DNA of 64,000 bases, from the NCBI GenBank assembly GCA_017640605.1, contig JAEPQH010000001.1, positions 124,001 to 188,000 of the forward strand, read 5' to 3'. The position numbers were made by a program, and so were the translations under genes. The stretch's first letter is position 1. Every line of letters begins with the position of its first letter. The notes under the pieces are model-generated. The model was not told where the DNA came from and did not search any database. It was given only the letters and a program-made list of their open reading frames with translations. This DNA is from Balneolaceae bacterium (GTDB lineage: Bacteria; Bacteroidota; Rhodothermia; Balneolales; Balneolaceae). Of the stretch, positions 20,104-24,787 are shown piece after piece.

Positions 20104-21316
20104 ACTACTACCTATTTTTGGACTCTTATTACTTTTCTATTCTGGCTGTGGTACAGAACCGAAGTTTGAGAGGGTAAATGCAAATGACCCTCAATCACAA
20201 TTTTTTTCACCAAAAACTGGTAGATTTTTTTCAGGTTTAAATTCCGATAAAACAGTCCGTTTGTCTTGGAATGATATAAGTGATTTTGAATCCGGTTATC
20301 TGATATGGAAAGGTTTAGGTGATAATTCAGATAAAATATTACTTGCTGAATTAGACGCAAATGAAACTAATTATGTTGATGAATCGGGAGAACTTGATAA
20401 AATTACTACTTATTTCTTAGCGGCTAAAAGTGAATATGTATCAAATTATGACTCTTTAAATAGTAAAAATGTATTAATCAATTTTACAGGAGGTATCGAA
20501 GATTTAACTGTTAATAGAGAAGGAAATATAATTTCATTGTACTGGGATAATACTTCCATCATCTCTGATTTTGTAACTGTTAATAGAATCTACCAAAATA
20601 GTGAATCGGAAATTTTGGATACTTTGAATAGAGAAGTCGAATCATTTCAGTTTACTAATCTTGAGGAGGATTATTCTACACAATTAGTGGTGTCCACGCT
20701 TTTGATCAATCACAATAATGAGCCACAAATTATACACTCAAATACAACCGGTAAGATTTTTTATAATACACCTCGAATCCACTCAATTTTATTTGAAAAT
20801 GAAGCTATTGCCAAAATCGAATTTGAAGATAATTCACCTTTCGACGACCAAATCTTAGTCTATCAAAGAAGTAGAAGGAATTCTAGCTATCCATACTCAA
20901 ATTGGGCATTTGCGGATACGCTAAATAAAGAGGATGGAAGATTTAAAATTAAAAAAACAACCAATAGAGATTATCAATTTAGCTTAATTGCTAACTATAA
21001 TGGGCTTGAAAGTACTCGATCTGGAGTAGCTACAAAATCACCAGGATCTTCACCGCCTAAAGATATTCAAATTGAGGAAATAGCAGAAAAAACAATTCGT
21101 ATTAGTTGGGTAGATGCTAATCCTCCAGAATTTACCCATAAGTATTTTTTGGATCGGAGAAATGGTGATTATGGCAGCTATAGTACTATTGCTGAACTAG
21201 ATGCGGGAGTTAATTCATATATAATTGATGATATAACACCAGCATATATTGAACATTTTAGAATCAGAACCTATAGTTCAGGGTTTAGAACATTTACTTA
21301 CGACGGCAGAAATTAA
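20078..21316 (+). CDS. FnIII-domain lipoprotein H (last gene of the operon)
   Basis: A 412-aa lipoprotein beginning at ATG 20078 (a GTG sits directly before it at 20075). Leader LLPIFGLLLLFYSGC gives lipobox YSGC, followed by GTEPKFERVNANDPQSQFF, a variant of the spacer in the other three lipoproteins. Two fibronectin-III-like domains are visible: about 45-125 (VRLSWNDISDFESGYLIWKG) and about 325-405 (IRISWVDANPPEFTHKYFLD, then FRIRTYSSG). It is longer than the other three lipoproteins. It closes the eight-gene run; the sequence directly after its stop is the remnant of a toxin gene on the opposite strand. Confidence 0.68.
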   Translation: MRQLESTFKLLPIFGLLLLFYSGCGTEPKFERVNANDPQSQFFSPKTGRFFSGLNSDKTVRLSWNDISDFESGYLIWKGLGDNSDKILLAELDANETNYVDESGELDKITTYFLAAKSEYVSNYDSLNSKNVLINFTGGIEDLTVNREGNIISLYWDNTSIISDFVTVNRIYQNSESEILDTLNREVESFQFTNLEEDYSTQLVVSTLLINHNNEPQIIHSNTTGKIFYNTPRIHSILFENEAIAKIEFEDNSPFDDQILVYQRSRRNSSYPYSNWAFADTLNKEDGRFKIKKTTNRDYQFSLIANYNGLESTRSGVATKSPGSSPPKDIQIEEIAEKTIRISWVDANPPEFTHKYFLDRRNGDYGSYSTIAELDAGVNSYIIDDITPAYIEHFRIRTYSSGFRTFTYDGRN

Positions 21317-21512
21317 TTTTTTTAAAATAGGAATGACTCAGAATTTTTTTTGTAAGGAATTCCATCTGGTTTGGACTATAAGATATGGAAAAGCGAAAAC
21401 AGATTGATGGAACAATGATTGAATCTGGTTTTAATATGACGGGTTCGATAATATCTGCATGAGATCCTTCCATGAAATACTCGAGCCAAAACGATGAATC
21501 TATAACATTCAA
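21294..21512 (-). pseudogene. Truncated PIN-domain toxin (VapC-like remnant)
   Basis: The first ~38 residues (VIDSSFWLEYFMEG, then IIVPSIC) match the start of a PIN-domain ribonuclease of the VapC family, including the first metal-binding Asp. Full PIN toxins are about 120-135 aa. Here the similarity stops at SIC and a 34-residue unrelated tail follows, so the other three acidic active-site residues are absent. Translation would start at a TTG overlapping the antitoxin stop. The gene has been broken by a deletion near 21400 and should be inactive. Confidence 0.65.
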
Positions 21513-21715
21513 AGTCGATCTGCTTCTTTTTCAATGTTTAGTTCTATTCCTTTCGCTATTCCGCGTAATGACTTAGCATCTTTGATTGGCACCATTTCGA
21601 TTCTACCATCAATAGGAATCATTAAGACCTTTTGTCCTGCTTTTATATTCAATGACTTCATGATTTTAGCAGGAATTGATATTTGAAATTTTGGTGATAC
21701 TTTTACGGCTTCCAT
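21509..21715 (-). CDS. AbrB/SpoVT-type antitoxin (VapB-like)
   Basis: A 68-aa DNA-binding antitoxin. The swapped-hairpin AbrB fold is recognised from VKVSPKFQISIPAKIMKSLN (residues 4-23), the Gly-Gln-Lys-Val-Leu turn, and IEMVPIKDAKSLRGIAKGI. The last part is the toxin-binding tail. It normally represses its own operon and neutralises a partner PIN toxin. The partner just downstream is truncated, so the antitoxin is now orphaned; it may still bind DNA or neutralise toxins encoded elsewhere. Confidence 0.8.
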   Translation of the reverse strand: MEAVKVSPKFQISIPAKIMKSLNIKAGQKVLMIPIDGRIEMVPIKDAKSLRGIAKGIELNIEKEADRL

Positions 21716-21854: not shown

Positions 21855-22892
21855 TCAAATAACCGGAATCCCATCCGGTTCCCACCACAGCGGTGGTCGT
21901 TGAGCCATGCTTAGAAACTCAGTCTTTACGCCCTCGATTTTTTCCCCGGCGGTGTAGACCGTTTGTACAGCCCCACCATATTTGTTTAATAATTCTTTCA
22001 CTTTCTCCTCATCCCCTTCCACCCAATGTAAGGTGGCATCGAGTTCCGGAAAGTCTTCGCTGTCCTGAATTAAGAAATGATCGAGCCAGGCTTGATCTCG
22101 GCCAATGGCTTTGTTGTAAGCAAACTGATATTCAATAGCATCGGTAGGTTTTTTGGTAGGCGGATTTTTCAGCCAAAAAGCTTCTATGTAATCCTGAAAA
22201 TGGCATTTTAATTTCGAAAAACGGGTTGGACTTACCACCACGGCTACCGATCGGCAACCCTGACTGCCATAACGGAAAATGGCTTCTACTAAATCGGTTA
22301 CAACTTCCGGCTCTTCGCTGGTGATGTACGCTATCGAGAACTTGGCGGTTCGGATCGTAAACTCCGTTTCTTCATTAACCGCTTGAAGCCTTATCAATTC
22401 TTTTTTTACAGTTTCAACGGACGATTCCGACCCGGCAAAGAGTACTTTATCAGCCTGTACTCCTTCAAAAGAGTCCAATTCGGTTGAATATCGGATCGAA
22501 TTAAATAGACCTGATTCTTGAAGCGAATCCAAAAAGGCTGCTAACAGATAGGGATCTTTTTTTGAAAGTTTTCCATAGTAATTTGCACCGGAAAGTATCG
22601 TACCCAAAGCATCCTGAAATCCAACTAATGGCAAATTACCGGCATGTAAACACAATACTTTTTTATCCATTTGATTGTATACATCACTAAGCTCAGCTCG
22701 CTTAGCCCATTCCGATACTTGCCCGGTATCCACTTTTTCCTTGAGTGCAAGAATTGCAAACTTAATGTCCTCAAAAGTGAACAATCCTTCTGCTACCGTT
22801 CTTTCAATCGCCTTTTTGAGTTTGGTATTATCCGGGCGAAACCACTTTTTTGTGGTTTCTTCGATGAGGGTTATGTGGTTTGTGATTGTCAT
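21855..22892 (-). CDS. LuxC-like acyl-CoA reductase
   Basis: A 345-aa cytosolic enzyme of the LuxC (fatty acid reductase) family, which reduces activated acyl groups to aldehydes with NADPH. Recognisable parts are LCLHAGNLPLVGFQDALGTI (about 79-98), SGANYYGKLSKKDPYLLAAF (100-119) and FRYGSQGCRSVAVVVSP (about 205-221). The Cys in GSQGCRS matches the family's predicted catalytic cysteine. It is shorter than luminous-bacteria LuxC (~480 aa), as usual for the Bacteroidota-type enzymes. Its probable partner, the LuxE-like gene, lies 0.9 kb upstream on the same strand, separated by the GIY-YIG repeat element. No luciferase genes are in the window, so a role in lipid or surface-molecule synthesis is more likely than light. 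Confidence 0.82.
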   Translation of the reverse strand: MTITNHITLIEETTKKWFRPDNTKLKKAIERTVAEGLFTFEDIKFAILALKEKVDTGQVSEWAKRAELSDVYNQMDKKVLCLHAGNLPLVGFQDALGTILSGANYYGKLSKKDPYLLAAFLDSLQESGLFNSIRYSTELDSFEGVQADKVLFAGSESSVETVKKELIRLQAVNEETEFTIRTAKFSIAYITSEEPEVVTDLVEAIFRYGSQGCRSVAVVVSPTRFSKLKCHFQDYIEAFWLKNPPTKKPTDAIEYQFAYNKAIGRDQAWLDHFLIQDSEDFPELDATLHWVEGDEEKVKELLNKYGGAVQTVYTAGEKIEGVKTEFLSMAQRPPLWWEPDGIPVI

Positions 22893-22951
22893 TCTGGTAA
22901 AGTAACGACTTTGTCCTCGAATTACCTCACATCTATAGTAAGGATTAAGTT

Positions 22952-23200
22952 CCGAGACGGTTTACAACCAAATACCCTTGATTCTTGGCATCTCGACCAG
23001 CGGGAGAGATCTAAAGAGCTATCCACCAACATACCCTCTAGATTTCTCACTCGTATGCACTCGTTCGAAAGGACAAAGACCGGAACAGTTTACAAGCGCA
23101 AAGCCCCAATTTTGGCATCTCGACCAACGAGTGAGATCTAAAGCGCTATCCACCAACATACCCTCTAGATTTCTCACTCGTATGCACTCGTTCGAAAGGA
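22952..23200. repeat. Two tandem ~127-bp direct repeats (left flank of GIY-YIG element)
   Basis: Unit 1 starts near 22952 and unit 2 near 23080. Matching anchors lie 127 bp apart: GGCATCTCGACCA at 22987 and 23114, and TTCGAAAGGA at 23064 and 23191. The strongly conserved inner block includes ATCCACCAACATACCCTCTA and GATTTCTCACTCGTATGCAC. Within each unit ATCTC and GAGAT, 11 nt apart, can form a small hairpin (for example 22990-23010). The same family recurs right of the nuclease gene. It is noncoding, although frames through it stay open by chance. Confidence 0.85.
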
Positions 23201-23214
23201 GAATGGCTAACAAC

Positions 23215-23565
23215 TCAGTAATGAGATCTTCTGTTTTTAATATTTCTCTCATCGGAATAATCTCCAAAAGGATATAAACCAAGCTCTTGATTTAGAAATC
23301 TAAACTCTGGGTTAGTTGTAGCTACCAGTTTATCTTTTTTCGACCTACTCCACTTTTTTATCTGTTTCTCACGATAAATAGCTTCATCTACGTATTTATA
23401 TTCTTCATAATAGGTCAAGTTGAAGCAGTAGTACCTACCTGCAAAAGTCTCTGGTTTCCCAGCGTTTAAACCATGTTCCAAAATACGCGAGGGTAAATCG
23501 TTTGTCATTCCAATGTAAACTGTACTTTTCGTTTGATTTGTTGTTATGTATACATAGTATGGCAT
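23215..23565 (-). CDS. GIY-YIG nuclease superfamily protein
   Basis: A 116-aa single-domain GIY-YIG endonuclease. The two beta-strand motifs are YYVYI (3-7) and VYIGMTNDL (16-24), followed by Arg27 and His31 in SRILEH, and the helix AIYREKQIKKWSR (about 62-74), which carries the metal-binding Glu. This URI/YhbQ-like form is often multicopy in Bacteroidota-type genomes. Here the gene is bracketed on both sides by the ~127-bp direct repeats and sits between luxE-like and luxC-like genes, suggesting a mobile or repeat-associated nuclease. It has no additional DNA-binding domain. Confidence 0.88.
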   Translation of the reverse strand: MPYYVYITTNQTKSTVYIGMTNDLPSRILEHGLNAGKPETFAGRYYCFNLTYYEEYKYVDEAIYREKQIKKWSRSKKDKLVATTNPEFRFLNQELGLYPFGDYSDERNIKNRRSHY

Positions 23566-23622
23566 CCTTTAAGATCATTAATTTATCGTTTTTTACAAAG
23601 TAAGATTGGCAATAATACAGCT

Positions 23623-23789
23623 CCCTAAATTTCTCTCTCGTATCCATTCGTTCGAAAAGACAAAAGTCGGAACAGTTAGCTAGCGCAAAGCACCATTTTT
23701 GCCATCTCGACCAACGGTAGAGATCTAAAAAGCCATCCACCAACACACTCCCCTAGATTTCTCTCTTATTCACTCGTTCGAAAAGACAA
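23623..23789. repeat. Partial and full ~126-bp direct repeat (right flank of GIY-YIG element)
   Basis: A half unit (23623-23665) is followed by a full unit (about 23666-23789). TTCGAAAAGA recurs at 23651 and 23777, 126 bp apart. It is diverged from the left-hand copies (AAAAGAC for AAAGGAC, CCATTCG for GCACTCG) but keeps the same order and orientation, including the hairpin ATCTCGACCAACGGTAGAGAT split as ATCTC and GAGAT arms. The left pair is more alike within itself than with the right pair. Confidence 0.82.
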
Positions 23790-23797
23790 TAACTAAA

Positions 23798-24787
23798 TTA
23801 GTCGTCGATCAAAAAGTTACAGCCGCGCAAGTTTCTTGGATTCCAGCGCCCTAACACTTGAAACTTACCATCTTCACGTTGAATCCCTTTATCTCCGGTT
23901 AGGATTAATGAACAAGAAAATAGGTTTGCCAAATCAATCACCCCAATGAGTCCTTCCTTGCCGCTAGGTAAAATTTCAAATGGATTTTGAGGATTTCTGA
24001 TCGAAACTCGCATCCACGGCACACATTCAAACCATAAAGAACCTTGACTATAAGCCTGACTCAACAATTCTGTCATTCCATATTCGGAGTGAATCGAGGA
24101 TGTTGGAAGTCCAAACCCGACTGCTAATTGTTCGTGAAGTTCCTCTTTCGTCATTTCCCGACGATGGGTTTTCATCCCACCGGTTTCTAATATGATAGAT
24201 TGTTTCGGTAAGGATGGTGATCCCATTTCAATCAAATCTAATAGTCCAAAAGCTGCGCCGAATAGCATCACTTTTTTTCCGGTTGATGTGATCTCATCCA
24301 GCAAGTCTGAATCAATCACATCACCAAGAGGCAAAAAGCGACTCAATCCTGATTGATCGTTTTCGATAAGTGCATTCAACATCCAAACCAGGGAAGAATG
24401 AGGATTAGCATTATAGCCGGGAGTGTATGCAAGAATCACATATTCGTCCAGATCATAAAAATGGTTCATTCCAAGGATGATGGAATCTCGGTAGACCGCA
24501 GTATCGATGAGATAATGCCTACTTCGCTGCATTCCGGACGTTCCGCTACTTTGAAAAAATTCTAAATTTTGAATTTTGAATTTTGAATTCGGTGATGAAA
24601 TCACCGTAGCATCTTTGAATGCCTGGATTGGGAGTAATGGAATATCATCGGTGGATTTTATCGCCCCAACACCTAGTGCCTTGCAAAATCGTTTATATAC
24701 TAGATTATTTTTCTTCTGAAATTCGAAGATTTGAAGAGCTTTTTCTTCGAAGCTCAAAGATGCATCGAATGGATTTAGCAAACTCAA
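23798..24787 (-). CDS. LuxE-like acyl-protein synthetase/acyltransferase
   Basis: A 329-aa protein of the LuxE (acyl-protein synthetase) family, which activates a fatty acid with ATP and passes it to a LuxC-type reductase. The family signature FFQSSGTSGMQRSRHYLID (about 75-93) is the adenylate-forming P-loop-like motif. AAFGLLDLIE, TGGMKTHRREMTKEEL (about 205-220) and SEYGMTELLSQAYSQG (about 237-252) are further conserved parts. A short repetitive insert (NSKFKIQNLEF, ~66-76) is encoded by an AT-rich repeat at 24561-24590. The ORF follows the beta-barrel gene by 3 nt, so they are co-transcribed. Partner: the LuxC-like reductase beyond the GIY-YIG element. Confidence 0.82.
   Translation of the reverse strand: MSLLNPFDASLSFEEKALQIFEFQKKNNLVYKRFCKALGVGAIKSTDDIPLLPIQAFKDATVISSPNSKFKIQNLEFFQSSGTSGMQRSRHYLIDTAVYRDSIILGMNHFYDLDEYVILAYTPGYNANPHSSLVWMLNALIENDQSGLSRFLPLGDVIDSDLLDEITSTGKKVMLFGAAFGLLDLIEMGSPSLPKQSIILETGGMKTHRREMTKEELHEQLAVGFGLPTSSIHSEYGMTELLSQAYSQGSLWFECVPWMRVSIRNPQNPFEILPSGKEGLIGVIDLANLFSCSLILTGDKGIQREDGKFQVLGRWNPRNLRGCNFLIDD

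Follow-up and report, generated by a model that had tools for sequence, protein, structure and literature searches.

Introduction

Free-standing homing endonucleases of the I-TevI and T4 Seg type possess a GIY-YIG domain, single-gene mobility and homology arms at their site. The Neisseria GIY-YIG nuclease Ssn is reported by Chenal, Veyrier and colleagues (Nat Commun, 2025) to cut single-stranded DNA (ssDNA) at a repeat with hundreds of genomic copies, and its homologues are reported to have other specificities. In REP/RAYT systems (REPtrons), a small nuclease gene, encoding the HUH tyrosine transposase RAYT, is flanked by its own palindromic repeat with a GTAG tag, and the repeat type follows the enzyme type. 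A literature search, with the 2025 Ssn report outside its scope, returned no paper tying GIY-YIG nucleases to REP-type or dRS3 repeats.

The CGTC-tagged REP superfamily, which includes Neisseria dRS3 and Rickettsia RPE-4 and RPE-6, is defined by a CGTC, TGTC or CCTC tag, a stem that begins with AT, a tail that is often CCA, and head-to-head dimers (Di Nocera et al. 2013, PMC3733652). These repeats "apparently lack a dedicated transposase", and GIY-YIG is unmentioned in the same paper (PMC3733652). Here we describe a GIY-YIG gene flanked by repeats of this type within a 64,000-nucleotide stretch of a Balneolaceae genome (the window), together with its counterparts in relatives and in other phyla.

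Results

A GIY-YIG gene among decayed CGTC-type REP dimers

In agreement with the original prediction, the GIY-YIG nuclease gene (23215..23565, minus strand) encodes a 116-residue protein; it matches PF01541 (1.6e-16), and its catalytic residues are intact. It is contained in an insert (22893..23797) that fills the interval between a LuxC-like acyl-CoA reductase gene (21855..22892, minus strand) and a LuxE-like acyl-protein synthetase gene (23798..24787, minus strand). As had been anticipated, no transposase adjoins the gene, its neighbours being these LuxC-like and LuxE-like genes. Further out, a small ORF pair (21294-21715, minus strand) resembles, by eye, an AbrB-type antitoxin and a truncated PIN toxin.

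Repeat comparison confirmed the predicted bracketing of the gene by direct repeats, with left anchors 127 bp apart and one and a half units on the right, all in one common orientation. One repeat pair (22985-23076 and 23112-23203) is 95% identical at an offset of exactly 127 bp, a second (23038-23161 and 23625-23748) is 83% identical, and four 37-nt copies recur at spacings of 127, 460 and 126. The repeat unit comprises a ~90-bp head-to-head dimer and a ~37-bp spacer. Dimer 1 (22986..23075, plus strand) reads TGGC-ATCTC..GAGAT-CT ... AGATTTCTC..TTCGAAAGGACA, with the tag decayed to TGGC from TGTC; dimer 2 (23113..23202, plus strand; DNA fold z -2.16) follows 127 bp downstream. On the 5' side of the gene, a half-unit corresponding to the 3' half of a dimer (23627..23663, plus strand) precedes the full dimer 3 (23700..23788, plus strand), which reads TGCC-ATCTC..GAGAT-CT ... 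AGATTTCTC..TTCGAAAAGACA.

On reading the sequence, each ~90-bp unit forms an imperfect palindrome of two head-to-head hairpins, with 5-bp ATCTC/GAGAT stems and 11-nt loops. The 5' arm reads TGGC/TGCC-ATCTC-GACCA..-GAGAT-CT and the 3' arm, on the other strand, approximately GTC-(C/T)TTTC-..-GAAAT-CT; the outer 3' arms mostly retain GTC, and the 5' arms have decayed to TGGC or TGCC. Judged by this anatomy, the unit is a decayed CGTC-tagged REP. The unpaired CGTC/TGTC/CCTC tag is present in relatives and partly in the window copy, AT..AT stem ends occur in both, and the short tail is mostly CCA in other taxa. Compared with described CGTC REPs, the window units have large loops and tags that have decayed to TGGC or TGCC, and in the window family the tail is CT in place of CCA.

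An Rfam scan of the locus returned nothing above chance, nor did a terminator and promoter scan of the window region, where no terminator-like site was found. The hairpins, which lie on both sides of the GIY-YIG gene, could serve it only as terminators or mRNA-stability elements, but we regard this as very improbable, given the empty terminator scan, the solitary copies found away from the gene, and a conserved unpaired tag and symmetric upstream dimers that it leaves unexplained.

The insertion in the window is old and partly decayed though its gene is intact, which makes it an ageing yet valid member of its family. It is classed as decayed because its dimers fold weakly (z -0.4, -2.2 and -0.8, versus -4.7 for the fresh copy at locus L017 in a relative), its tags are degraded, and BLASTN finds a single relic elsewhere in its own genome (C29:6500-6540). 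The motif TGTCATYTCGA is present in 3 copies in this genome versus 50 in relative G018, so that the high genomic copy number of CGTC REPs is seen in relatives such as G018 and not here. The idea that the repeat spreads thus applies to relatives, the repeat being unamplified in the window's own genome, and the strength of the case comes from those relatives rather than from the window copy.

The association recurs in related genomes

A protein search of 59 relatives yielded more than 80 matches in 25 genomes. Comparison of flanks (900 bp per side, direct repeats of at least 60 bits) shows bracketing of 36/70 related GIY-YIG genes versus 8/532 random positions in the same genomes (Fisher p about 1e-30, an indicative value, because control positions overlap one another and the 70 loci include overlapping and tandem ones); the eight control bracketings are confined to a few adjacent stretches. 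The repeat sequence varies by locus, and most share the architecture GTCAT-hairpin-ATCT ... AGAT-hairpin-ATGAC. GTCAT..ATCT half-units lie within 500 bp on both sides of 40/72 related genes versus 12/1083 control positions. In several copies the gene is enclosed by one inverted pair only, GTCATCCTGAACTTGTTTCAGGATCT - gene - AGATCCTGAAACAAGTTCAGGATGAC.

Of the perfect 7-bp hairpins whose outer pair is AT, those close to the genes are tagged CGTC (18), TGTC (15), AGTC (9) and GGTC (6), and comprise 14 different stems with a CT tail in nearly all; control hairpins of the same kind show no enriched tag. Solitary repeat copies also occur away from the gene, for example in G001 and G007. TGTCATYTCGA is abundant in some genomes (G001, G007, G034) that have no close window-clade gene. 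A GIY-YIG gene whose product is 67% identical to the window protein (L021; G025:C1:341433-341726) has no repeats around it and is possibly a domesticated or stranded copy. In the host genome, a tandem 8-bp CACTGAGG repeat adjoins another GIY-YIG cassette (L010 1038-1104; G000:C27).

Tagged hairpins in independent collections

A tblastn search of a plasmid collection with relative L035 returned 31 records, of which 12 loci, spanning alpha-, beta- and gammaproteobacteria, one cyanobacterium and one Bacteroidota species, were examined by reading. Tagged REPs adjoin the GIY-YIG gene in all 12 by this reading, in some on one side only. The N. gonorrhoeae locus contains GTCATTCCCGCGCAGGCGGGAATC, a dRS3-type sequence, and the A. 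lipoferum gene lies between sufB and sufC; S. meliloti and A. lipoferum both appear in the 2013 list of CGTC REP species (PMC3733652). Two records filed as plasmids, NZ_CP119142.1 (2.17 Mb, N. gonorrhoeae) and CP090106.1 (3.7 Mb, S. meliloti; ntrX, hfq, hflX), appear to be chromosomes by size or gene content.

A further 80 loci, mostly proteobacterial, were drawn from genome contigs by protein similarity alone and played no part in motif discovery. GTC-tagged perfect hairpins occur at 1.24/kb within 700 bp of these genes versus 0.061/kb beyond 1.5 kb, a 20-fold difference. A GTC- or CCTC-tagged hairpin is present at 55/80 loci, about a third being without a recognisable one. Among 136 hairpins, 102 are tagged CGTC and 26 TGTC, 97 have the tail CCA, and 23 stem sequences are represented. 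When the hairpin is not presupposed, a 6-bp stem follows 30% of GTCAT occurrences near the gene versus 4% far from it, compared with 2.6% versus 1.0% for other tags.

The close, tandem spacing of the window units could in itself suggest an ordinary local tandem duplication or an assembly artefact. We give that reading practically no credence, as it is refuted by the recurrence of the architecture across phyla in many independent genomes, among them records labelled as complete sequences.

Repeat type follows nuclease clade

Nucleases that are more alike have more similar repeats: at 143 loci the Mantel r between protein identity and repeat similarity is 0.40, against a null distribution with a mean near 0 and an sd of 0.02. 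Host relatedness was taken out by shuffling repeat signatures among the GIY genes of a single genome: the repeat is more similar, by a mean of 0.151, to that of the best-matching nuclease elsewhere (null sd 0.014), a value reached in 0/1000 shuffles. Repeat type therefore follows nuclease clade, even between copies within one genome.

One repeat, GTCATCCTGAACTTGTTTCAGGATC, is found in 12/59 genomes, and the matching nuclease clade in 11, all among those 12 (p 4e-11, indicative, the clade cut-off of E <= 5e-28 having been picked after the list was seen). G023 and G012 hold only two copies each, flanking the gene, and G018 and G007 hold 22 and 14. Genomes with window-clade genes likewise contain more copies of TGTCATYTCGA than the others (Mann-Whitney p 2e-4); the matching is not exclusive, because G001, G007 and G034 are also rich in this motif.

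These patterns bear on a passive association, in which REPs are hot spots for insertion or recombination and GIY-YIG genes are brought in by another enzyme or by REP-REP recombination. REPs can be targets of other insertions (PMC3733652), and direct repeats permit recombination. We nevertheless hold this explanation to be improbable, in view of the matching of REP type to nuclease clade inside single genomes, the restriction of one REP type to the genomes that have the matching nuclease and a single further genome, and the transposase-free surroundings of the window gene.

Cassette boundaries and empty sites

The luxE-luxC pair is conserved in most relatives, and in relatives the window insert is absent or has a different, solitary REP dimer in its place: the interval holds little or nothing in G014, G019 and G009, and in G001 and G007 it holds a solitary REP dimer of a different type, with the nuclease absent. 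In Shinella, a REP-GIY-REP block separates two genes in two strains, and the same genes are adjacent without the block in two other records. The search for empty sites that had been proposed for this locus was thus successful both at luxE-luxC and in Shinella.

Between cassettes at non-orthologous sites, similarity tends to stop at the REP edge. The left homology boundary falls at GTCA in 38/76 cassette pairs (6.4 expected) and the right boundary at TGAC in 28/59 (4.2 expected), counts that do not represent independent events since pairs share loci. Two Mesorhizobium loci of one assembly (L170 and L171) have 534 bp in common, from CTTCGTCAT to ATGACGAAG, between unrelated flanks. The cassettes accordingly have defined boundaries as well as empty sites; target-site duplications were not identified at them.

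A nuclease of Ssn type might instead cut its own repeat in ssDNA and modulate uptake or recombination without self-mobility, the repeats being kept for host function. This would fit the Neisseria homologue (L107, of N. gonorrhoeae), which shares 40% identity over 87 residues with the window protein and sits among dRS3-type repeats, and it would fit what the Ssn family is reported to do in Neisseria. By itself, such a role appears rather unlikely, although compatible with a mobile cassette, for it leaves unexplained the several cassettes per genome with different repeat types, the homology ends at REP edges at unrelated sites, and the empty sites.

The nuclease and its nearest relatives

Residues Y6, Y17, G19, R27, H31, E66 and N85 are invariant over the alignment. 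The AlphaFold model of the window protein (pLDDT 86) matches the UPF0213 structure 1zg2 best, followed by Slx1, with I-TevI lower, and sequence profiles match UPF0213 only (1zg2 and 1ywl). The YhbQ-like UPF0213 proteins therefore represent the nearest solved structures, both entries by sequence and 1zg2 by fold; unlike the window family, these entries are "hypothetical" and have no recorded repeat association. The window protein has no NCBIfam match and belongs to no PADLOC defence family, and PHROGs gave merely weak homing-endonuclease matches, for relatives. A conserved inverted repeat, TGTAAGGA..TCTTACA, lies just 5' of the GIY-YIG start codon in L048, L057, L061, L067, L076, L083 and others, where it overlaps the likely ribosome-binding site and possibly exerts translational control of the nuclease.

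A second GIY-YIG subfamily at tRNA genes

The host genome also carries tRNA-linked GIY-YIG copies, which we considered as possible instances of the same element and treat as a separate subfamily. This subfamily resides at tRNA gene 3' ends (G000 C11:97941-98183, L008/L230; relatives L231-L259), with further host copies on C13 (L004) and C14 (L013) and at the ends of C3 and C25 (L006 and L005). A tRNA lies within 1.5 kb at 24/28 loci versus 2 tRNAs in 380 kb of control, with tRNA and gene all on the same strand and the tRNA upstream of the gene in 22. At many loci the tRNA 3' end is duplicated (16-24/24 nt) just 3' of the gene, and the four closest loci, the query's own included, are all at tRNA-Ser with different anticodons. 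The pattern suggests a one-gene element that targets the 3' ends of tRNAs. Contigs C3 and C25 begin (first ~600 bases) inside GIY-YIG/tRNA repeat arrays, so the host assembly was probably broken by these repeats.

Discussion

We read the window locus as a probable minimal REP-GIY-REP cassette, mobile or homing, with a nuclease that would recognise its cognate hairpin. A cassette of one or more REPs on each side of the GIY-YIG gene would have inserted between luxE and luxC, and the small nuclease would recognise the hairpin formed by its cognate CGTC-type REP, the likeliest substrate being single-stranded or extruded DNA arising in replication, repair or uptake. Cutting at the REP could let the cassette be copied into further sites or persist at those it already occupies, and solitary dimers of the same type are probably copied or kept likewise. 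The data fit two routes, single-strand transposition and RecA-dependent homing in which REPs act as homology arms, without favouring either. The REP/RAYT-like logic put forward in the original prediction is strongly supported as regards association, which recurs across phyla with type matching and empty sites; that the nuclease cuts and moves the repeat is the part we infer.

Each of the closest systems shares some of these features. REP/RAYT resembles the cassette in its small nuclease gene flanked by a cognate tagged palindrome and in the dependence of repeat type on enzyme type, and differs in having a HUH enzyme and a GTAG tag where a GIY-YIG enzyme and a GTC tag are found here. Homing endonucleases of the I-TevI and T4 Seg type share the GIY-YIG domain, single-gene mobility and homology arms; here there is no intron, and in place of a long, unique stretch of gene sequence the putative site would be a short hairpin with dispersed copies. 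Ssn is likewise a GIY-YIG protein of about 100 residues with a cognate repeat in many genomic copies, and in our data, too, a GIY-YIG of the subfamily is flanked by and matched to a genomic repeat. Its activity is reported for Neisseria and some homologues, whereas sequence-specific ssDNA cleavage by the window family is predicted. The Ssn reports, if right, would supply a biochemical precedent and limit the novelty of the present proposal.

More broadly, we suggest tentatively that CGTC REPs, including dRS3 and the Rickettsia palindromes, may be non-autonomous partners of a very widespread class of one-gene elements whose sole protein is a ~100-residue GIY-YIG nuclease recognising the hairpin of its own repeat. 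In a great many bacteria the intergenic regions are filled with short palindromic repeats, of which the CGTC half was reported in 2013 to have no enzyme. The GIY-YIG/REP pairing provides a testable candidate enzyme for CGTC REPs and predicts which nuclease goes with which repeat. Empty and occupied alleles in Shinella and at luxE-luxC, together with the two-site Mesorhizobium genome, offer experimental material, and the pairing would also be a source of numerous small nucleases predicted to differ in the hairpins they recognise. The broader proposal, if true, would give REP-like repeats a third enzymatic basis, alongside RAYTs and classical MITE transposases.
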